Source: a virus
Strand: one strand, 5' to 3'
Length of the DNA: 31,687 nt
IMG/VR virus record: IMGVR_UViG_3300021197_000107
Coordinates: 1 to 31,687 of that record
Below the pieces are notes generated by a model. The model ran no database searches, was not told where the DNA came from, and saw only the letters and a program-made list of their open reading frames with translations. Shown one piece after another: positions 6,199 to 26,362 of this stretch. The position numbers and the translations under genes were made by a program. How positions within the stretch are numbered: the stretch's first letter is position 1; each line of letters begins with the position of its first letter.

Positions 6199-7032
6199 AT
6201 GGCGATTAACGTCTCAACCGCGTTTGTTGATCTTTTCGATTCTGAGGTCAAACAAGCGTATCAAGCCGAATCTGTGCTTCGTGGCACAATGCGGACCCGC
6301 ACCGGCGTTGCCGGTAACACTGTTAAGTTCCCAACAATCGGTAAAGGTGTAGCTACGCTCCGCGTACCACAAACCGATGTTACACCACTTAACGTCACAT
6401 ACGGCCAAGTAACTGCGACAATGGAAGACTACATTGCAGCAGAATACTCAGACATCTTCCAACAGTCCCACATCAACTTTGATGAGCGTTCTGAATTGGT
6501 ACAGGTTGTATCTAAGTCTATTGCTCGGCGCATGGACCAGATCATGATCGATGCTCTGAACGCGGCCACTGGCACATCTACTGTTGCAACAACAATCGGT
6601 GGTGCTGGCACAAACATGAACATCGAAAAGCTCCGCGCTACTGCGAAAGCTATGAATGAGAAGAACGTACCTTCTGAAGGCCGTAACTTGCTCATGCACG
6701 CTTCTCAGCTTGACGCTTTGCTCGGTGAAACTGAAATCACAAGCCAAGACTTTGCTTCTGTAAAAGCTCTTGTCCAGGGTGAGATCAACACGTTCATGGG
6801 CTTCAACATCTTGACAATGGGCGACCGTGACGAAGGTGGCATTCCCAAGCCTTCTACTCGTACTTGCTTTGCCTGGCACAAAGATTCGATGGGCTATGCT
6901 GAGTCGATGGCTCAGAAAACCGAAGTCAACTATGTCCCGGAAAAGACATCGTTCTTGGTTAGCTCCATGTTCTCTGCTGGTTCCGTCTCAATTGACGGCG
7001 AAGGCATTGTCAAAATTTCTTGCACTGAATAA
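6199..7032 (+). CDS. Major capsid protein
   Basis: 277 residues forming the head shell. Evidence: position after portal and scaffold, the strongest ribosome site in the window, and a sequence of the HK97-fold type: N-terminal AINVSTAFVDLFDSEVKQAY, then GNTVKFPTIGKG, an E-loop/P-domain-like middle with DEYSDIF-like helix and ARRMDQIMIDAL, and C-terminal NVLTMGDR-type strand (GFNILTMGDRDEGGIP) followed by CFAWHKDSMGYA and a final strand set. A TTG at 6172 in the same frame would add nine basic residues, but that TTG sits in the hairpin and AAAGGAGGT points to ATG 6199. Assignment to the fold is by pattern; the function is well supported by synteny. Confidence 0.9.
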   Translation: MAINVSTAFVDLFDSEVKQAYQAESVLRGTMRTRTGVAGNTVKFPTIGKGVATLRVPQTDVTPLNVTYGQVTATMEDYIAAEYSDIFQQSHINFDERSELVQVVSKSIARRMDQIMIDALNAATGTSTVATTIGGAGTNMNIEKLRATAKAMNEKNVPSEGRNLLMHASQLDALLGETEITSQDFASVKALVQGEINTFMGFNILTMGDRDEGGIPKPSTRTCFAWHKDSMGYAESMAQKTEVNYVPEKTSFLVSSMFSAGSVSIDGEGIVKISCTE

Positions 7033-17301: not shown

Positions 17302-20300
17302 ATGAGTGATATCGCAATTAATCCAGTAACCCGCCGGGTTCAGTTCACAGGCAATACCGGAACCGGTCCATATGCCTTTACGTTCAACATCTTGGTCGAT
17401 GGTGATATCGCAGTCTTCAAGGGGACTACGGAGCTAACGCTTACCACTGATTACACGGTCAGTATTAATGCAAATGGAACGGGGTCTATCACCCTAACGG
17501 TTGCTCTCATAGCATCTGACGTTCTGACAATCATTGGCGGTCGTGAGCTTTCCCGCACGACTGACTTTGTTACAGCCGGTGACTTGCTGGCTTCAAGCTT
17601 AAACGAACAGCTGGACAGTAATGTGATTATGACCCAACAGCTTGATGAGAAGCTTGGGCGTGGCTTGTTTGTGAACCCTGGTGATGTGTTCACTGACCTG
17701 GAGCTTCCTCTGAAGGATGATCGCAAAGGCACAGTTCTTGGGTTCAATGCGGCTACGGGTGATCCAGAGCCAGGTCCAGAGATTGCTGATGTCGATTCAC
17801 TAGCAAATATCTCTGCTGATATTAAAACCCTTGCTGAGATCCAGGACGGTACGGTTGCGACTGACGCTATTACAAACGTCAACACGATCCGGGCAAATGT
17901 CACCACGGTATCCAACATCTCAGGCAATGTAACGACTGTTGCAGGGATTAGCTCTGACGTTACTACGGTTGCGGCTGATGGCACTGATATCGGGCTTGTT
18001 GCTGGATCGATCAGTAATGTGAATAATGTTGGTGGATCTATATCAAACGTAAACACTGTTGCCGGATCTATTTCTAATGTTAATACGGTTGCGGCTGACG
18101 GTGCTGACATTGGAACTGTTGCTGGGATTTCTAGCAATGTCACAACTGTTGCCGGTATTAGCTCTGATGTTACGACTGTGGCGGCTGATGGTACGGACAT
18201 CGGCAACGTCTCCGGTTCAATAGCAAATGTTAATACCGTTGCGACAAACATTGCATCTGTAAATACAAACGCAACCAACATTGCTGCAATTCAGGGCGCT
18301 TCAGCAAATGCCGCAACTGCTACGACAAAAGCTAGTGAGGCTGCTGCAAGCGAATCTACTGCAACAACTCAAGCTGGTATTGCCACAACCAAAGCTGGGG
18401 AAGCTGCTGCATCTGCAACTGCTAGTGCGACTTCTGCCTCTGCATCTGAGGCTGCTAAGGATGCTACTCTTGCTGCACTGGATAACTTCGATGATCGTTA
18501 TCTGGGGTCTAAAGCATCCGATCCTACGCTGGACAATGACGGCAACCCATTGATTTCAGGGGCTTTATATTTTAATACTACTGACGATGTGATGAAAGTA
18601 TATGACGGTAGCTCATGGCTTGCTGCTTATGCTTCTCTGTCAGGCGCTCTGCTTGTTGCTAACAACCTGTCTGACTTGGCGTCTGCTTCTGCTGGTCGTA
18701 CTAATCTCGGGCTTGGCACTGCGGCAACTACAGCCTCCACAGATTACGCTACCGCTGCTCAAGGCACACTAGCTGCTAGTGCAGTACAGCCCAACGACAG
18801 CCCTACGTTTGCAGGTCTAACCACTACTGGCAACGTGTCAGTCGATGGCGGCACGATCAAGCTGGACGGGAATTATCCTGTTGGGTCTAACAACGTGGCG
18901 TTGGGTGATGCTGCGCTGGATAGTAACGTGTCTGGCGGACAGAACACAGCTATCGGTTCCGACGCCTTAACAGCTAACACTGCGGATGATAATACGGCTG
19001 TTGGCTGGTCGGCTATGAGTTCGAATACTACAGGCTCTTTGAATGTCGCAGTAGGAAGAAGCGCCTTGGAGGCAAACAATACGGGCGGCTCCAATACCGC
19101 AGTGGGTTATGCGCCATTATCTAATAATACTACAGGTGGAAGCAATGTAGCCGTTGGCCGTCAGGCACTCCTCTCCAATACCACCGCAAGCAACAACACA
19201 GCTGTTGGGTATCAGGCGGGGTACTCTACAAATACTGGTAGCAGTAACACAAGCAGTGGTTATCAGTCATTTTACAGTAATACCACTGGTCACAGTAACG
19301 CTGCTACGGGCTATCACGCACTATACTCCAACTCCACCGCCAGCTACAACACAGCGAATGGTCTTCAAGCCCTGTATAGCACCACAACAGGTCAATATAA
19401 TACGGCTATGGGGGCCACTGCTCTCTACTCCAACACCACCGCTTCCAACAACACGGCGGTTGGGTATCAAGCGGGGTATGACAATACGACAGGCGGTAAT
19501 AATACAGCAGTTGGTCGTGAGGCATTAAGCAACAACACAACCGCTGACAACAACACTGCTGTGGGTTATGTCTCGTTAAGAGATAATACTACAGGGACTA
19601 GAAACTCCAGTGTAGGTATGGCGGCTCTTGCTAACAATGAAACGGCAAGTGACAATACCGCTATGGGTTACTACGCCATGGTTAATAATACCACGGGTGC
19701 CTACAATACCGCTATTGGCACAGAAGTGCTGCATGAAAACACCACCGCAAGTTACAACACTGCTGTGGGGTATCAGGCGGGGCATAGTAATACTACTGGC
19801 AATGTAAACACAGCCGTGGGCTATCGTGCTTTGCTGTCAAATACGACAGGTTATGAGAACACTGCGATTGGGCCAAATTCTCTTAAAGTAAATACAACTG
19901 GACTTTATAATACGGCAGTTGGCTCAACCGCACTTTTCTCCAACACCACAGCCAGCAACAACACTGCGGTTGGCTATCAGGCTGGGTATAGTCGCACTTC
20001 AGGTGGTGATAATACAATTATTGGACGTAAAGCAGGCTACAGTGGAACAACAGGGCAAGGAAATACTTTCTTAGGTCAGCAGTCAGGTTACAACATAACA
20101 ACAGGCTCCAAGAACACCATCATTGGCCGCTACAGCGGCAACCAAAACGGCTTGGACATCCGCACCTCAAGCAACAACATCGTGCTGTCGGATGGGGATG
20201 GTAATGTAAGGGCGCACTGTGACTCAAATGGTACTTGGACAGGTGTTGGTGCTAGTACAACCTTTAACGATGTTGGTACTTATACTCTGGCTGGTCTAAA

Positions 20301-20520
20301 ACAGACAGGCTCTCGTATAACTTATAGTGGGGGAACAACTTTTTCAGCCTCTAGTTTGTTCAAGCCAAACACCGTACAGGCTTACAACCAAATGGAAAAG
20401 AATCTTAACTATGGATCGCAGTCATCTGGTTTGAGTGGCACATGGCGACTTATGGAAGAGGTTAGAATTGAAGATTCCGCTAATCACTTAACTTTTGGAA
20501 TGTTTGTGAGGATTTCATAA
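17302..20520 (+). CDS. Tail fibre with gp17-like N-terminus and YadA-like repeats
   Basis: 1072 residues; host-recognition fibre, almost certainly trimeric. Residues 1-130 match the T7 gp17 tail-attachment domain (RRVQFTGNTGTGPYAFTF; DVLTIIGGRELSRTTDF). About 170-335 carry short repeats of the type NVTTVAGISSDVTTVAADG. About 335-395 is an Ala/Ser/Thr coiled-coil stretch, then a linker domain with DRYLGSKASDPTLDNDG and ALYFNTTDDVMKVYDGSSW. From about 530 to 955 there are about 24 repeats of 17 residues, consensus NTAVGYQALYSNTTGSN, resembling the beta-roll head of YadA-type adhesins. The last 115 residues are a unique tip domain. AAAGGAACGGGAAAACGAC precedes the start. Confidence 0.9.
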   Translation: MSDIAINPVTRRVQFTGNTGTGPYAFTFNILVDGDIAVFKGTTELTLTTDYTVSINANGTGSITLTVALIASDVLTIIGGRELSRTTDFVTAGDLLASSLNEQLDSNVIMTQQLDEKLGRGLFVNPGDVFTDLELPLKDDRKGTVLGFNAATGDPEPGPEIADVDSLANISADIKTLAEIQDGTVATDAITNVNTIRANVTTVSNISGNVTTVAGISSDVTTVAADGTDIGLVAGSISNVNNVGGSISNVNTVAGSISNVNTVAADGADIGTVAGISSNVTTVAGISSDVTTVAADGTDIGNVSGSIANVNTVATNIASVNTNATNIAAIQGASANAATATTKASEAAASESTATTQAGIATTKAGEAAASATASATSASASEAAKDATLAALDNFDDRYLGSKASDPTLDNDGNPLISGALYFNTTDDVMKVYDGSSWLAAYASLSGALLVANNLSDLASASAGRTNLGLGTAATTASTDYATAAQGTLAASAVQPNDSPTFAGLTTTGNVSVDGGTIKLDGNYPVGSNNVALGDAALDSNVSGGQNTAIGSDALTANTADDNTAVGWSAMSSNTTGSLNVAVGRSALEANNTGGSNTAVGYAPLSNNTTGGSNVAVGRQALLSNTTASNNTAVGYQAGYSTNTGSSNTSSGYQSFYSNTTGHSNAATGYHALYSNSTASYNTANGLQALYSTTTGQYNTAMGATALYSNTTASNNTAVGYQAGYDNTTGGNNTAVGREALSNNTTADNNTAVGYVSLRDNTTGTRNSSVGMAALANNETASDNTAMGYYAMVNNTTGAYNTAIGTEVLHENTTASYNTAVGYQAGHSNTTGNVNTAVGYRALLSNTTGYENTAIGPNSLKVNTTGLYNTAVGSTALFSNTTASNNTAVGYQAGYSRTSGGDNTIIGRKAGYSGTTGQGNTFLGQQSGYNITTGSKNTIIGRYSGNQNGLDIRTSSNNIVLSDGDGNVRAHCDSNGTWTGVGASTTFNDVGTYTLAGLKQTGSRITYSGGTTFSASSLFKPNTVQAYNQMEKNLNYGSQSSGLSGTWRLMEEVRIEDSANHLTFGMFVRIS
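18889..20160 (+). repeat. 51-bp tandem repeat block inside fibre gene
   Basis: About 24 in-frame degenerate copies of a 51-base unit encoding N-x-x-x-G-x-x-A-x-x-x-N-T-T-x-x-x. Copies are diverged at the DNA level with frequent AATACNACNG and GGGTATCAGGCGGGGTA strings; three to four copies encoding NTAVGYQAGY are almost identical. One copy near the start is 16 residues long. Such blocks expand and contract by recombination. Confidence 0.85.
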
Positions 20521-21201: not shown

Positions 21202-21420
21202 ATGAGTAAAAACGAAAAGAACCTCATCACTGTCAACGACATCGAATACGACATCGAAGACTTCACTGACGCACAGAAGACTATGCTGAACCACATCAAC
21301 GATCTGGATCGTAAGCTAGGCAGCGCACAGTTTAACTTGGATCAGCTTAACGTAGGGCGCAGCGCTTTTGTAAAGATGCTGGCTGACTCTTTGGAACAAC
21401 CGGAAGAAAGAGATGAATAA
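21202..21420 (+). CDS. Small DUF6447-like protein
   Basis: 72 residues. Begins KNLITVNDIEYDIEDFTDAQ, a short beta hairpin, then a helix with LNHINDLDRKLGSAQFNLDQL. This strand-plus-coiled-coil layout (ITVNG.EY..ED.s...k..l..l..l) fits the small phage family DUF6447 as I remember it; function unknown. Strong ribosome site GAAAGGAGACC. It overlaps the next gene by 8 bases. Confidence 0.6.
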   Translation: MSKNEKNLITVNDIEYDIEDFTDAQKTMLNHINDLDRKLGSAQFNLDQLNVGRSAFVKMLADSLEQPEERDE

Positions 21421-21607
21421 ACGAACAATATCGTCTGCGCATGACCGCATTGACAGCCTTGAGAAGGAAATCGTTGCTATCAAGACTGAGGTAAAGATCC
21501 AGTTTAAAGATCTATTCAGCCGCGTCAAACGCATGGAAAGCATTATGATTGCAACCACAGGATCTATCATTGCCCTCTTGCTGGCGGTGCTATCGAAGAT
21601 GGGATGA
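21413..21607 (+). CDS. XhlA-like holin/antiholin-type membrane protein
   Basis: 64 residues: charged heptad-like helix (residues 5-42, RIDSLEKEIVAIKTEV) followed by one transmembrane helix (about 43-62, IMIATTGSIIALLLAVL). This is the arrangement of the XhlA family and of several small phage lysis regulators. It starts the lysis-region genes and overlaps both neighbours (8 bases before; ATGA after). Could instead be a membrane regulator of another holin encoded downstream. Confidence 0.6.
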   Translation: MNKRTISSAHDRIDSLEKEIVAIKTEVKIQFKDLFSRVKRMESIMIATTGSIIALLLAVLSKMG

Positions 21608-22155
21608 GGTTTCTTTTAGCTATAGCCATTGCGCTTGCAGGGGTTGCTGCATCTGCGCAAGACAGTGACGTAGTGAAAAGCGAAAGTACTGTCACAAGTA
21701 GCGGAACAATGGATACAACGGTCAACTCTCCGCCGCCCTCTGCTATCTCTCCGCAAATATCTGCAAGCAATAGCGATCTTTGCACGGTTGGCGTAGCTGG
21801 CGCAGTTCAGACGCAGATACTTGGTATTTCCGCTGGTCGCACGGTGCGAGATATGAATTGCGAAAAGCTAAAGAACGCAAAGACGATGTATGATATGGGA
21901 ATGAAAGTAGCTGCTGTATCGGTCATGTGCCAAGACAAGCGCGTATTCGATGCAATGATGGACGCTGGAACCCCATGCCCCAAGGATGGCTTGATTGGTG
22001 ATGCGGCTAAAACCGCATGGGAGATGGAAGCCAACGAAGACCCTGCGCCAGAAATGCAGCGTGGAGCTATAGAAGGTTTGATTGATGCACAAGACTCCAA
22101 AACTATTGGGATCGGCGCTGTGCTGGGCGCTCTGGGCCTCCTGTTGTTACTCTGA
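21604..22155 (+). CDS. Exported protein with C-terminal membrane anchor
   Basis: 183 residues, coupled by ATGA overlap. Residues 1-18 are a signal peptide (MRFLLAIAIALAGVAASA before Q). The exported part has four or more Cys (DLCTVGVAGAVQTQILG; MNCEKLKNAK; VMCQDKRVFDAMMDAGTPCP), able to form disulphides in the periplasm. Residues 166-183 are a hydrophobic tail (IGIGAVLGALGLLLLL). I recognise the DLCTVG...GISAGR...CEK pattern as recurrent in marine phages, function unknown. The DNA coding for the tail also codes for the next gene's signal peptide in another frame. Confidence 0.65.
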   Translation: MRFLLAIAIALAGVAASAQDSDVVKSESTVTSSGTMDTTVNSPPPSAISPQISASNSDLCTVGVAGAVQTQILGISAGRTVRDMNCEKLKNAKTMYDMGMKVAAVSVMCQDKRVFDAMMDAGTPCPKDGLIGDAAKTAWEMEANEDPAPEMQRGAIEGLIDAQDSKTIGIGAVLGALGLLLLL

Positions 22156-22957
22156 TCCATATTTATTTGGGGTGACAGGCAATGCCGCCGCAAGCGGTCT
22201 GTCTTGGTCGATGGGGTCGGTGCTTCCCTCACAAGATGGCCTAGATGTAAACGGCCTCATTTACAGGTACAGCACGGTCAAAAATACAGACGATGCAATG
22301 AAGGTGCATATCCGCAACGGCAATGCCGATGGCACGGGCTACACGTTCAGCGAGACTGACAATTGGTCAGGCGTTCCAGGCAACACAATCACCAAACAGT
22401 TTTCCTTGCCCTATGTCCCGGCGGCTCTGTGGGGTAATGGCTCAATTGATGTCGAAGGTACAGGCGAAGTGATCGATCCTGTTGTGATTTACAGCTACCG
22501 CTTTGATCCGTGCTACGATCCTCAGATCGACCCAAACTGTCCAGGCTACGTCAAACCTGCGCCGCCTGTCATTGAGGTTGAGGTATATGACGCGCTTGAA
22601 GATGAGGCGATAGCAGAAATTTTAGAAGATGAGACCGAATTTAAATATGATGCGGATGGTAATCTAATTGTAGAAGAGGATGAAGAGGAAGAGGAGACCC
22701 GCTTGGAGATGGGTCTCATGGCATCGGCCAATGCTCTGACACTCACTCAAACCCAAGGGCAGTCCGACTTGATTAACCAGATCAATTTGCAAACCAATAT
22801 CGCCATGTATTATAATACAAGCATAGCAGGGGGAGCCTATGGGGATGTCAATATTTTGACAGAGGTTGATTTGCCCGATAACAAAAAGGCACTGAGAAAC
22901 AACTTGGCACAACAATTGCTTCATGAGCAAATGGTTCAGGGCCAATATGGAGATTGA
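22085..22957 (+). CDS. Exported acidic protein, unknown
   Basis: 290 residues from ATG 22085, which has AGAAGG about eight bases upstream and lies 71 bases inside the previous gene in another frame. Residues 1-23 look like a signal peptide (basic HKTPK, then LLGSALCWALWASCCYS). The mature part starts DPYLFGVTGNAAASG and is beta-rich to about 150, with a CYDPQIDPNCPG loop; then comes an acidic stretch (DEEEEE near 200) and a helical C-terminus rich in Gln/Asn. No known domain. Sits between other exported proteins, so it likely works with them in the periplasm, at the cell surface or on the virion. Confidence 0.6.
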   Translation: MHKTPKLLGSALCWALWASCCYSDPYLFGVTGNAAASGLSWSMGSVLPSQDGLDVNGLIYRYSTVKNTDDAMKVHIRNGNADGTGYTFSETDNWSGVPGNTITKQFSLPYVPAALWGNGSIDVEGTGEVIDPVVIYSYRFDPCYDPQIDPNCPGYVKPAPPVIEVEVYDALEDEAIAEILEDETEFKYDADGNLIVEEDEEEEETRLEMGLMASANALTLTQTQGQSDLINQINLQTNIAMYYNTSIAGGAYGDVNILTEVDLPDNKKALRNNLAQQLLHEQMVQGQYGD

Positions 22958-22958
22958 T

Positions 22959-23450
22959 ATGAAGTACCTAACTCTTGTTCTGTCTTGTGTGGCATTGCCT
23001 ACCCTTGCAAACAACGTAAACATAAACGGAACTGTTCAGGCGCGTTGCGTCATCACAACGGATACTGTCGGTGTTTACGGGAACCCTACTGCCGACAAGT
23101 TGACCACAGCTTCGGCAAGTGCAGGTGTTGTGCCTGTTGTTCGATACGATGTGGCGCTGGCCAACTACTACACCGCAAAGATTACGCATCCTACATCCTT
23201 TAGCTCATCACCCTCACTCAGTGACACGGTAACGTGGACTGGAACAACATCCGTCCACAATACATCTGACGCTGGTATGTCTGGATATGACGCAGCGAAG
23301 GTGACTTACGGATCGACCACCGAGTTTGCCTTAACCGTTGCGGGATCAACGTGGTTTAAGACTGAAAGCGAAGCGGTGTATGGGGTCAGCAAACCCTTCC
23401 CCGGCGGGACTTACACCGCCCTTGTTGTGGCAGAATGCATTGCTGATTAG
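22959..23450 (+). CDS. Pilin / spore-coat-U-like exported protein
   Basis: 163 residues from ATG 22959; the frame is open upstream, but this start gives a perfect signal peptide (KYLTLVLSCVALPTLA, cut before NNVNING) and lies one base after the previous stop. The mature part looks like a pilin-type beta sandwich: strand VNINGTVQARCVITT with a Cys at the usual place, Tyr/Thr-rich middle strands, and final strand GGTYTALVVAECIAD with the second Cys. This layout resembles spore coat U/fimbrial subunits. A structural role is inferred; no sequence search was possible. Confidence 0.5.
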   Translation: MKYLTLVLSCVALPTLANNVNINGTVQARCVITTDTVGVYGNPTADKLTTASASAGVVPVVRYDVALANYYTAKITHPTSFSSSPSLSDTVTWTGTTSVHNTSDAGMSGYDAAKVTYGSTTEFALTVAGSTWFKTESEAVYGVSKPFPGGTYTALVVAECIAD

Positions 23451-23823
23451 AGCTTGCATATTCCTCTGTCTTGCTGCGCCAGTGGCGGCACATGATATGA
23501 CACCTGCATATCCAGAGGTTCGACCGTCCCACGTTGCTGGTGTGGTTCGCGCCGATATGTCTCTCTTTAATGCTCGTAACGATGTCAAATACTATCAGGT
23601 CGAAGTATTCGATGAGGCTTGGGGAAACATAAAGTTCTCGTCGCCTAATCGCATAATGAAGGTGGACTACGAAGAGCGTAAAGACTTTGCAGTTTACATT
23701 CGCAAGTCTGACATGGATCGGGCGGTTTATCTTTGCACTACGTCAAAGATCGTAAAGGATCGTGGAGACAAACCAATGGTCGCAAGTAAGATATGTTCGA
23801 GGCTGGACGGTGGCAGACCATGA
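23440..23823 (+). CDS. Single-domain pilus-chaperone-like exported protein
   Basis: 127 residues from TTG 23440, overlapping the pilin-like gene by 11 bases. This start gives a clean signal peptide (LIRACIFLCLAAPVAA, cut before HDM); the open frame extends to 23338 but that would bury it. The mature 110 residues contain MSLFNARNDVKYYQVEVFD, then NRIMKVDYEERKDFAVYIRKSD and YLCTTSKI, similar in order to the N-terminal Ig domain of PapD-like chaperones (S..L.N....Y.v.v.d ... vp....k.f.vy.r...). The second Ig domain is absent. Adjacent to a pilin-like gene, this is suggestive, but remains inference. Start codon choice is moderately sure. Confidence 0.5.
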   Translation: MLIRACIFLCLAAPVAAHDMTPAYPEVRPSHVAGVVRADMSLFNARNDVKYYQVEVFDEAWGNIKFSSPNRIMKVDYEERKDFAVYIRKSDMDRAVYLCTTSKIVKDRGDKPMVASKICSRLDGGRP

Positions 23824-24266
23824 AACTGCTTTGGGGAGCATACGGTGTCTTCTGCATTGCGGTTTCAATCTGGTTTATATCCGCGATCCAAGCTAGATCT
23901 GACAGTAGCTCTCTCGCTGTGCAACTTCCCAACCCACCGATGAACTATCAGTCAGACAGGTTTCGTGCTGGCAACCTAGATTGCAGCAACGCCATCGGCG
24001 GTGGCACGACCTTAGAGTGGGGCGTGACAGGTGTGGTCAACAACAACGATGGCAATGTTGGTCAGGGCAAGGATATCGGGTTGTATGCCCGCATCGTTAT
24101 ACCTCTGGACAAGCCGCGAAGCCGCATAAACTGTGATGACCTTTACCAGCTTGAGCTAACACAGCGCAGACTTGAGGTGCAGATGCTTCGTGCTGAATTG
24201 CAGGCGTTGCAAGACTTGCAGAATAGCCAAACCAACTCCGATGGAGATATGGAGTTTGAGAATTGA
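23820..24266 (+). CDS. Exported or anchored protein with coiled-coil tail
   Basis: 148 residues from ATG 23820 (ATGA overlap with the previous stop). Residues 1-25 are a signal peptide or anchor (LLWGAYGVFCIAVSIWFISA). The exported part has GNLDCSNAIGGGTTLEWGV and SRINCDDLYQLELTQRRLEV with two Cys, then a leucine-rich coiled coil (about 110-135). Unknown family. The C-D-D/E-x-L motif followed by a helix is reminiscent of MNCEKLKNAK in the 21604 gene, so the two could share a fold. A spanin-like role is conceivable but there is no lipobox. Confidence 0.55.
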   Translation: MKLLWGAYGVFCIAVSIWFISAIQARSDSSSLAVQLPNPPMNYQSDRFRAGNLDCSNAIGGGTTLEWGVTGVVNNNDGNVGQGKDIGLYARIVIPLDKPRSRINCDDLYQLELTQRRLEVQMLRAELQALQDLQNSQTNSDGDMEFEN

Positions 24267-24841
24267 CTGACCTCACAGAAGTTGCAGATGATATCGAAGG
24301 TCTCTCTGACCGTGAGTTTAAGGCTGGTGGTTTTAAGTTTACGTTTGCGTCTGTCGCTGCAATCTTTGCGTTCATTTCCACCATTGTCGGCGGCTTGTAC
24401 GGTGGCTTTGTTCTCTATCAAAAGATCGAAGAGGTTGCTGGTTTAGATCTCGGTGCATATCAACAACAAATGGAGGTGATGGATGCAAAGGTTTCCGGTA
24501 TGGCGGAGAAAGTCGAAGAGGCTGTCGAATATTCCAGAGACATCAAGAACGGTCTTAAAGATGACATACTGCGAATTGAGCAACAAAGTGATAGGGTGGA
24601 AGACACGGTTAGGGCTATTGAAGATCGGGTTGACGGTTCGATACGGTCAAACGAGGCAGAGGTCAGGCGGCTCGTAGATGAAGCCATAGCAGACATCCGT
24701 GCCATGATAGATGCCGCTGACGTTAGGTTTGAAAATCAGAGAGAACGTGTTAGAAGTAGCCAAGATGCGGACATGAAAGAACTTGAAGATCGCCTAACGA
24801 ATAAACTTCAACGGGCGCTGGACAACCCCTTAGCCGACTAG
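24263..24841 (+). CDS. Membrane protein with long coiled coil
   Basis: 192 residues starting at TTG 24263, overlapping the previous stop (TTGA) with GGAG eight bases upstream. N-terminal 25 residues are acidic, one transmembrane helix at about 28-52 (FASVAAIFAFISTIVGGLYG), then about 135 residues of continuous charged heptads (DRVEDTVRAIEDRVDGS). Topology fits a protein whose long rod reaches into the periplasm. Its place beside holin genes makes an inner-membrane spanin-like or lysis-timing role possible; also possible is a partner of the exported cassette. Confidence 0.6.
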   Translation: MTDLTEVADDIEGLSDREFKAGGFKFTFASVAAIFAFISTIVGGLYGGFVLYQKIEEVAGLDLGAYQQQMEVMDAKVSGMAEKVEEAVEYSRDIKNGLKDDILRIEQQSDRVEDTVRAIEDRVDGSIRSNEAEVRRLVDEAIADIRAMIDAADVRFENQRERVRSSQDADMKELEDRLTNKLQRALDNPLAD

Positions 24842-24850
24842 GAGATACTC

Positions 24851-25162
24851 ATGACTTCCTTTGAAAAAGCAGACGTAAACAAAGACGGTAAAATCGACGA
24901 AGCTGAATGGCAAAAACTGGCGCTCGAAGATCGCTGGCGTGAGCTGAACGATGCTGACGCAAAGCGGGACACACAGCGTAGGTTAACTACTGCCTGCGCT
25001 GCTGGTATGTTGTTATACCCTTTCGCCATTGTGGCGGCCGCTGCGTTGGGCTTAGACACTGCTGCGAACCTGATTGCTGACATTGCTACCGTGTATGTAG
25101 TGGCTGCGTCTGGTGTTGTAGCTGCTTACTTTGGTTTCAACGCAATGGAGGCTAAGAAATGA
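24851..25162 (+). CDS. Holin-like two-TM protein with EF-hand loop
   Basis: 103 residues; GGAG six bases before ATG 24851. Residues 8-19 (DVNKDGKIDEAE) match every key position of a canonical EF-hand calcium loop (D1, N3, D5, G6, I8, D9, E12). Then a charged helix and two transmembrane helices at about 45-68 and 74-96. Two small hydrophobic helices next to another holin and an endolysin indicate a holin or antiholin. The single EF-hand in the cytoplasmic N-terminus is unusual; it could pair between subunits. Calcium binding is a prediction from the motif. Confidence 0.65.
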   Translation: MTSFEKADVNKDGKIDEAEWQKLALEDRWRELNDADAKRDTQRRLTTACAAGMLLYPFAIVAAAALGLDTAANLIADIATVYVVAASGVVAAYFGFNAMEAKK

Positions 25163-25545
25163 TCGGGCAGCTTCTAGGCCCAATCACCAACATTGTCGGG
25201 GGCATTGTCCAAGGCAAGATGGAACAGAAGGCCGCTGAAAGCAAAGCCAAGGTCGCCAAGGCTGAAGCCCAGGCTCAGATCATGCTGTCACAGGCTACGT
25301 CCGAGGCCGATTGGGAAAAGGTCATGGCTGAAGGTTCCCAAGAAAGCTGGAAGGACGAATGGCTAACAATTTTGTTCTCTGTGCCTCTGGTGCTTGCCTT
25401 CTGCGGTGAGTGGGGGCGTGATATAGTGGCTGACGGGTTTACTGCACTCAATGCCATGCCTGATTACTATCGCTATACTTTAGGAGCCATCGTGAGCGCC
25501 AGCTTTGGTATTCGTGGCGCAACTAAATTCTTCGGAAAGAAATGA
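25159..25545 (+). CDS. Holin, GTA_holin_3TM-like
   Basis: 128 residues, ATGA overlap with the gene before. N-terminal helix rich in Ala/Lys/Gln (about 20-50), then WKDEWLTILFSVPLVLAFC (about 64-82) and a C-terminal membrane helix YTLGAIVSASFGIRGATKF (about 105-123). The S-x-K/R-D-E-W ... P ... F..P..Y...LG.i...sFG.r layout fits the GTA_holin_3TM family, common in alphaproteobacterial phages. It immediately precedes the endolysin, with which it would release lysin across the inner membrane. Confidence 0.75.
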   Translation: MIGQLLGPITNIVGGIVQGKMEQKAAESKAKVAKAEAQAQIMLSQATSEADWEKVMAEGSQESWKDEWLTILFSVPLVLAFCGEWGRDIVADGFTALNAMPDYYRYTLGAIVSASFGIRGATKFFGKK

Positions 25546-25546
25546 T

Positions 25547-26362
25547 ATGATACTTACAGAAAAACAAGTCGAACAGCTATTGCACGGCAATAAGGATTGG
25601 GCCGAATGGGTTGAACCATTGCAGACTATGCTCTTAAAATATGAAATCGACACTCCAAACCGGATTGCTATGTTTATGGCTCAGTGTGGTCACGAAAGTA
25701 ATAACTTCCGCGTCCTGAAGGAAAATCTCAATTACTCCGCGAAAGCTCTCAACGCGATCTTCCCCAAGTATTTTGAACGCGCTGGGCGTGATGCGCAGGA
25801 ATACCACCGTCAACCTGAAAAGATTGCAAACGTGATCTATGCAAATCGCATGGGCAATGGTCCAACGGAGAGCGGTGATGGCTGGACACACAAGGGTGCC
25901 GGAGTAATCCAGCTCACGGGCAAAAATAATCAAACTGCCTTCGCAAACAGTGTCGGCAAGACGATTGAACGGGCCATTGAGTATTTGGACACTAAAGAAG
26001 GCGCTCTCGAGAGTGCCTGTTGGTTTTGGTCAGAGAATAATCTGAACCGATATGCGGATGACATCCTGAAAGCCACAAAGAAAATCAATGGCGGAACAAT
26101 CGGTCTTGAGGATCGGAAACATCATTATCACGATGCTTTGGAAATCCTGGGTGGCAAGGTTAATCCAGCCCCGCGCCCAACTCTCTTGAAGGTTGGAAGT
26201 GAGGGTGAGGCGGTTAAGAAAATCCAAGAGGTTCTTGGTCTTGATGCTGATGGTATCTTTGGGCAAGTGACCGCTAAATATGTGATGGTCTGGCAAGCTG
26301 ACAATGGACTTGAGCCAGATGGAATTGTTGGCCCGAAAACCTATGCCAAAATAATTAAATAG
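25547..26362 (+). CDS. GH19-type endolysin with peptidoglycan-binding domain
   Basis: 271 residues. Residues about 1-200 form a GH19 (chitinase-like lysozyme) domain: QCGHESNNF with the likely catalytic Glu50, NRMGNG near 105, and GAGVIQLTGKNN (117-128) as the substrate-loop motif, then ESACWFW. Residues about 210-270 are a PG_binding_1 repeat (VGSEGEAVKKIQEVLGLDADGIFG ... GPKTYAKI, in parts). It degrades host murein at lysis. The frame opens at 25505, but ATG 25547 is one base past the holin stop and gives the normal N-terminus. No signal peptide, so it depends on the holin. Confidence 0.92.
   Translation: MILTEKQVEQLLHGNKDWAEWVEPLQTMLLKYEIDTPNRIAMFMAQCGHESNNFRVLKENLNYSAKALNAIFPKYFERAGRDAQEYHRQPEKIANVIYANRMGNGPTESGDGWTHKGAGVIQLTGKNNQTAFANSVGKTIERAIEYLDTKEGALESACWFWSENNLNRYADDILKATKKINGGTIGLEDRKHHYHDALEILGGKVNPAPRPTLLKVGSEGEAVKKIQEVLGLDADGIFGQVTAKYVMVWQADNGLEPDGIVGPKTYAKIIK

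Follow-up and report, generated by a model that had tools for sequence, protein, structure and literature searches.

What use does a virus make of exported pilin- and chaperone-like proteins that are encoded beside its lysis genes? The question was raised by the IMG/VR virus record IMGVR_UViG_3300021197_000107 (31,687 nucleotides, 31.7 kb; this whole stretch of DNA is called the window here), in which a first-pass annotation, made from the sequence alone, had noted five consecutive coupled genes for exported proteins at 21604-24266. All five open reading frames (ORFs) were recovered; a sixth gene was added, the starts of the second, fourth and fifth were revised, and the genes are named A to F. 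Sequence comparison indicates that block A-F is a mobile, horizontally shared module, not tied to one phage lineage, and we consider it highly probable that the module and its predicted folds are real.

A six-gene block of exported and membrane proteins

The six genes lie on the + strand, overlapping or abutting, and form a translationally coupled block:

Gene A: 21604..22155, + strand; 183 amino acids; match to phrog_20531 (E-value, E, 5e-12)
Gene B: 22085..22957, + strand; 290 amino acids; 71-nucleotide (nt) overlap with A; start inferred from the conserved overlap
Gene C: 22959..23450, + strand; 163 amino acids; signal peptide 1-17 and predicted pilin-like immunoglobulin-like (Ig-like) domain; phrog_25895 (E 1e-5)
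Gene D: 23440..23823, + strand; 127 amino acids, TTG start; signal peptide and one predicted PapD-N-like domain
Gene E: 23820..24266, + strand; 148 amino acids; match to phrog_37374 (E 5e-9)
Gene F: 24263..24841, + strand; 192 amino acids; N-terminal membrane segment, long coiled coil, conserved end ALDNPL

The median intergenic distances from A/B to E/F in the relatives were -71, +11, -11, -4 and -1 nt. The start of B is most likely the ATG at 22085, since the A/B median of -71 nt was obtained over 69 loci. D starts with the TTG at 23440, a start codon shared by 53 of 77 relatives. For E, the ATG at 23820 is most likely and 23793 is possible.

Protein A runs from a signal peptide through a Ser/Thr/Pro-rich linker and a conserved Cys domain (LCTVGVAGAVQTQILG...NCEKLKNAKT...GMKVAAVSVMCQD...AGTPCP) to a hydrophobic C-terminal segment. 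B comprises a signal peptide, a putative beta-rich domain ending in DPCYDPQIDPNCPGY, an acidic linker and a conserved C-terminal motif, LRNNLAQQLLHEQMV..QY. E has a signal peptide (or, in the window, a long signal anchor), a conserved region (YQSDxFRAGxLDC...YARIVIPLDxxxxRINCDDLYQ) and a coiled coil at the C-terminus; in many members its mature N-terminus carries an alternating SSSLxLxLP segment.

Signal peptides were called by a simple n/h/c-region heuristic, not SignalP. It was passed by A in 22 of 29 sequences, B in 29 of 34, C in 25 of 25, D in 27 of 30 and E in 29 of 31, far above the background of 73 among 1365 other ORFs on the carrier contigs. B of the window fell narrowly under the hydrophobicity threshold (1.71 vs 1.9), and no F protein (0/20) passed.

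Conservation and mobility

IMG/VR viral contigs were scanned with C, which resulted in 106 relatives, from which 80 loci were kept and examined. Nearly all of the loci with enough flanking sequence kept the order A-B-C-D-E(-F), and their contigs span 5-220 kb; in some large-genome phages F has shifted by as much as 2.3 kb. Pairwise protein distances correlate across the six genes (r 0.71-0.91), so the genes travel together. Because sequence and gene order are kept in about 80 loci and the six genes co-diverge, a chance origin is excluded.

We then compared 16 longer carrier records (32-220 kb) across all ORFs. Outside the block, the carriers fell into at least six groups (window/G001; G006/G008/G012; G015/G016; G017; G026; G027; plus the large-genome group G014/G021/G022/G024/G025/G028/G029), between which mostly 0-4 further proteins were common and in a few comparisons 5-8. 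The nearest isolated phage by terminase, MEP301 of OM43 (68% identity), has the same backbone, and A-E were not found in it. The mobile-module reading follows from these two observations, the few other genes shared among carriers and the lack of the block in MEP301. The first-pass annotation spoke of a phage carrying the module, which is correct and understates its recurrence in many unrelated marine phages. Homologues in bacterial genomes were restricted to two short contigs of one Rhodobacteraceae metagenome bin, and these are probably phage.

Predicted folds of C and D

Single-chain AlphaFold2 models of C and D were built with family alignments. The D model has one domain, with a predicted local distance difference test score (pLDDT) of 86.4. 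Foldseek matched it to SfaE (E 1.3e-4) and to many FimC, Caf1M and SafB chains, and VIA aligned it to FimC with Z 10.7 over 104 residues (root-mean-square deviation 3.7). MSP domains and an exo-glucosaminidase domain score nearly as high against the model, so structure alone places D at the level of the PapD/MSP superfamily. Additionally, the profile-profile score of D to PapD_N was 23.8 vs 10.3 +/- 2.0 in column-shuffled alignments (0/60 shuffles as high), and its profile gave no signal to SCPU. The Pfam model PapD_N (PF00345) did not match D at E 1. D is thus confidently modelled as a single PapD-N-like chaperone domain, in line with the earlier suggestion that it resembles the first Ig domain of a PapD-type chaperone. 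Its C99 and C119 are invariant in 29 relatives.

The model of C (pLDDT 86.5) is probably a pilin-like Ig sandwich, with weaker support than there is for the fold of D. Its top Foldseek matches were chiefly pilins (PapG pilin domain, FimG and CfaB, with Caf1 and CsuA/B lower), at probabilities up to 0.99; the best E was 3e-3, and most TM-scores stayed under 0.5. The profile signal to SCPU was weak (16.5 vs 11.9 +/- 2.1, 1/60 shuffles as high), the Pfam model SCPU (PF05229) did not match C at E 1, and Foldseek against viral models returned nothing significant. A search of solved structures by sequence profile resulted in chance-level matches only for both C and D. The paired cysteines noted earlier in the 22959-23450 protein, C30 and C160, proved invariant in 25 relatives.

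In pilins, the stretch before the first Cys includes the donor strand. At positions 10, 8, 6 and 4 before the first Cys of C, the shares of sequences with a nonpolar residue are 80, 100, 100 and 100%, and the residues between these positions are mostly polar; the corresponding values for SCPU pilins of the class sampled were 94, 100, 94 and 100%. The stretch is shorter in C, with 11-18 residues before the first Cys, mostly 11-12, whereas most SCPU pilins have 16-23. The monomer model shows this part of C as a low-confidence coil, which would fit a donor strand without its neighbour, yet any flexible N-terminus would look alike.

No informative family was obtained for A-E from Pfam, NCBIfam or PADLOC, and no enzyme, transporter or regulator family was recognised in A-F. 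Weak PADLOC matches of F to ZorA look like coiled-coil matches and were set aside. The usher family (PF00577) exceeded the cut-off in none of 30 carrier records, which may be fragments, with a positive E. coli control; the earlier remark that no usher is present agrees with this result.

Relatives in isolated phages

A-type proteins were found in the pelagiphages HTVC115P, HTVC202P, HTVC033P, HTVC023P, Baldr and Mosig and in the roseophages CRP-207 and CRP-810, with E down to 1e-50; in several cases an annotated endolysin or lysozyme gene is close by. HTVC115P (gp54/gp49 being the A/F types), CRP-207 (gp75/gp73) and CRP-810 also encode F-type proteins. The C-D-E triplet was found in the Vibrio phages pVp-1 (gp77-79), PS14A.1 and vB_VhaS-tm, where all members are annotated as hypothetical. 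In pVp-1 all three passed the hidden Markov models (HMMs; C 2e-6, D 4e-7, E 1e-13), in vB_VhaS-tm D and E passed, and in PS14A.1 only E passed; the remaining members were assigned by position and by eye. In pVp-1 the triplet has a T-type holin and an M15 endolysin in its vicinity.

Several annotations in the roseophages touch these families. CRP-207 gp73 (L088:3292-3873) and CRP-810 gp51 (L089:6162-6584) match the F family and are annotated as lysozyme; no Pfam lysozyme domain was found in CRP-207 gp73, and both labels are probably misannotations. CRP-810 gp53 (L089:4776-5531), an A-family member, is annotated 'OmpA family protein' and has no OmpA domain by Pfam. Directly before gene A, small predicted lipoproteins are encoded in CRP-207 (L088:1725-1940) and CRP-810 (L089:4558-4818) that give weak matches to the A-family HMM (E 1e-4 and 2e-5, respectively), as if a short A-type domain had an outer-membrane-anchored copy.

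Genomic neighbourhood

In the window, the gene order is terminase, portal, capsid, tail, tail-fibre gene (17302-20520), small genes, block A-F, holin-like gene and endolysin. Downstream of F were found:

Companion protein: 24851..25162, + strand; 103 amino acids, EF-hand (EF-hand_5, 9e-7) and membrane segments; frequent beside the block
Holin-like membrane protein: 25159..25545, + strand; phrog_2524 (5e-30), a family without a named function
Endolysin: 25547..26362, + strand; phrog_181, with the peptidoglycan-binding domain PG_binding_1

The phrog_2524 gene and the endolysin lie about 0.3-0.7 kb downstream of F, which bears out the lysis-region placement proposed in the first-pass annotation; layout and position suggest that the product of 25159-25545 is a holin. 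The block stands just before holin and endolysin in the window, G001, G008, G012, G026 and G027.

Further observations concern the flanks. Just before A, at 21413-21607, the window encodes a 64-amino-acid coiled-coil protein with a C-terminal membrane segment and a weak likeness to the phage 'hemolysin' family phrog_1193 (E 0.06). The tail-fibre gene contains, at about 18900-20100, many head-to-tail NTAVGYxAGYxNTTG-like repeats, which by eye resemble the head repeats of YadA-type adhesins. In two large-genome carriers, a lipase-like protein (FRGTEPGEFSD) is encoded after E (G021 61679-62395, G029 39467-40183), followed by a nuclease-like gene.

Function of the block and alternative explanations

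A survey of 677 phage genomes left about 13% without an identifiable spanin and their outer-membrane opening unexplained (PMC6139136). An Rz-family spanin (PF03245) was found in none of 34 records here, and a lipobox scan of ORFs in all frames, which recovered lambda Rz1 and T7 gp18.7, gave no candidate on the window's coding strand. These two negatives and the place of the block before holin and endolysin speak for our favoured reading, which we put forward tentatively: A-F remodels the envelope late in infection, plausibly in place of spanins, and D acts as the chaperone of C; a role of A-F at the outer membrane is held with slightly more reserve. Under this reading, A-E would be exported to the periplasm, while the N-terminal segment of F would anchor it in the inner membrane. 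D would hold the pilin-like C as a single-domain PapD-like chaperone, and another molecule, either a second C or a partner such as E, would donate the strand that completes C. The resulting complex may reach from F and A, at the inner membrane, to the outer membrane, which it could remodel or breach late in infection, in phages without a recognisable spanin. By sequence, F has a membrane segment and a coiled coil laid out as in an i-spanin, although it did not match PF03245. A has the layout of a type I membrane protein with a C-terminal transmembrane segment, and the same survey proposed that a protein of this layout could act as an i-spanin (PMC6139136). In its fullest form, the proposal is of an usher-less mobile module in which marine phages without spanins combine a pilin-like subunit, half a PapD-type chaperone and four phage-specific envelope proteins into a structure that spans the periplasm and opens the outer membrane, and in this form it is doubtful.

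Several results weigh against the favoured reading. The large-genome carriers have the block at a distance from any recognised lysis gene. MEP301 lacks the block, and a credible spanin lipoprotein was not found in it either, so absence of the module need not be compensated. The lipobox scan is heuristic, and the sequence of the window is perhaps not complete. In vB_VhaS-tm (L087:6221-6433) and pVp-1 (L086 gp80, 6287-6445, open upstream), a gene for a small acidic lipoprotein overlaps or follows the 3' end of E; its arrangement resembles that of an o-spanin gene, and its product is a possible o-spanin. Finally, the pilin matches of C were under Foldseek E-value significance, and VIA preferred generic Ig-like adhesins (Z up to 7.8).

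The strongest rival is superinfection exclusion or progeny protection, in which the exported proteins would cover or hide the surface receptors on infected cells or on their debris. The T5 lipoprotein Llp is a precedent for receptor masking; the signal peptides on A-E agree with this explanation, as does the presence of tail-fibre or fibre-like genes immediately upstream of the block in the window and the Vibrio phages. However, carriers with unrelated genomes, whose receptors presumably differ, keep the same set, and a receptor plug would hardly call for as many as six proteins; we regard this explanation as unlikely. Altered host envelope physiology during infection, such as uptake or stress control apart from lysis and exclusion, would account for the EF-hand and membrane segments of the companion protein and for the large-genome carriers holding the block outside recognised lysis clusters, but the lack of recognised enzyme, transporter or regulator families in A-F makes it less likely still.

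A true extracellular fibre ranks below both. Here C subunits would join by donor-strand exchange to form a thin pilus, which would leave the cell through an usher of the host or some other pore and might, for example, aggregate cells. The donor-strand-like register of C, the chaperone-like D and the pelagiphage curli precedent, for which cell aggregation was proposed (PMC9599517), speak for it. Nevertheless, no usher was seen in the 30 carrier records, though the search did not extend to host ushers, SCPU and PapD_N were each detected in just 13 of the 142 genomes that were sampled from the class, the stretch before the first Cys of C is short for a pilin, and D lacks the second chaperone domain; the extracellular appendage envisaged earlier is hence improbable. 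That C or E decorates the virion, as had also been suggested, is the least probable explanation by far. Ig-like domains are common on phage particles, and in vB_VhaS-tm the C-D-E genes lie between capsid and tail genes, but tailed-phage virions assemble in the cytoplasm, and the conserved Sec signal peptides of A-E would direct the proteins away from that site.

Among the roles first suggested, envelope modification before lysis is thus the best. The fold guesses of that interpretation largely survive, with an Ig-like and a chaperone fold predicted and the genes conserved together in order in about 80 loci, whereas its appendage and virion roles are disfavoured. This exported six-gene block, kept across otherwise unrelated marine phages and often beside holin and endolysin, is a concrete candidate for outer-membrane opening without spanins. 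With the EF-hand companion, a calcium-dependent lysis step is conceivable. The isolated Vibrio phages (C-D-E), pelagiphages and roseophages (A/F relatives) make the module testable.

Comparison with known systems

Block A-F is undescribed as far as our literature search shows; the search, with most subscription journals outside its reach, found no description of a phage pilin/PapD module. In chaperone-usher pili of the archaic SCPU type (PF05229 pilin and PF00345 chaperone), an exported Ig-like subunit likewise stands beside an exported PapD-like domain, and the nonpolar register before the first Cys of C and the fold and profile signal of D are shared. In contrast, the block is without an usher, D has one domain vs the chaperone's two, the second Cys of C lies in the last strand, and four phage-specific proteins accompany C-D. 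Only two parts of the block are like those of chaperone-usher pili, and with neither an usher nor a two-domain chaperone it is not classed as such a system.

The Vibrio triplet (phrog_25895, phrog_25455 and phrog_37374) has the same three genes in the same order as the block, but A was not found there, nor were B and F in the stretches read. The A/F genes of pelagiphages and roseophages share the A-family Cys domain and the F-type membrane coiled-coil protein, with an endolysin nearby in several; C-D-E is absent from them, and another acidic exported protein takes the place of B. Among these counterparts, the C-terminus of B was matched only in HTVC115P, and weakly (E 0.002). Rz/Rz1 spanins share the position at the lysis genes, and F resembles an i-spanin in its membrane segment and coiled coil. 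They differ in that a lipoprotein partner was not found in the window, no Rz family match was obtained, and the block has six genes vs two.

A relation to curli was rejected, as CsgG (PF03783) was found in 0/34 records; no tested gene is common to both blocks, and no amyloid or pore gene was recognised. In behaviour, however, the pelagiphage curli block is the nearest precedent, as envelope-appendage-type genes moved as a block. Curli or type VIII secretion genes pass as a block between marine phage families (PMC9599517), and a role in lysis was proposed for them in pelagiphages (PMC9004378). Block A-F adds, after curli, a second kind of bacterial surface-fibre-type protein to the gene blocks common to marine phages.

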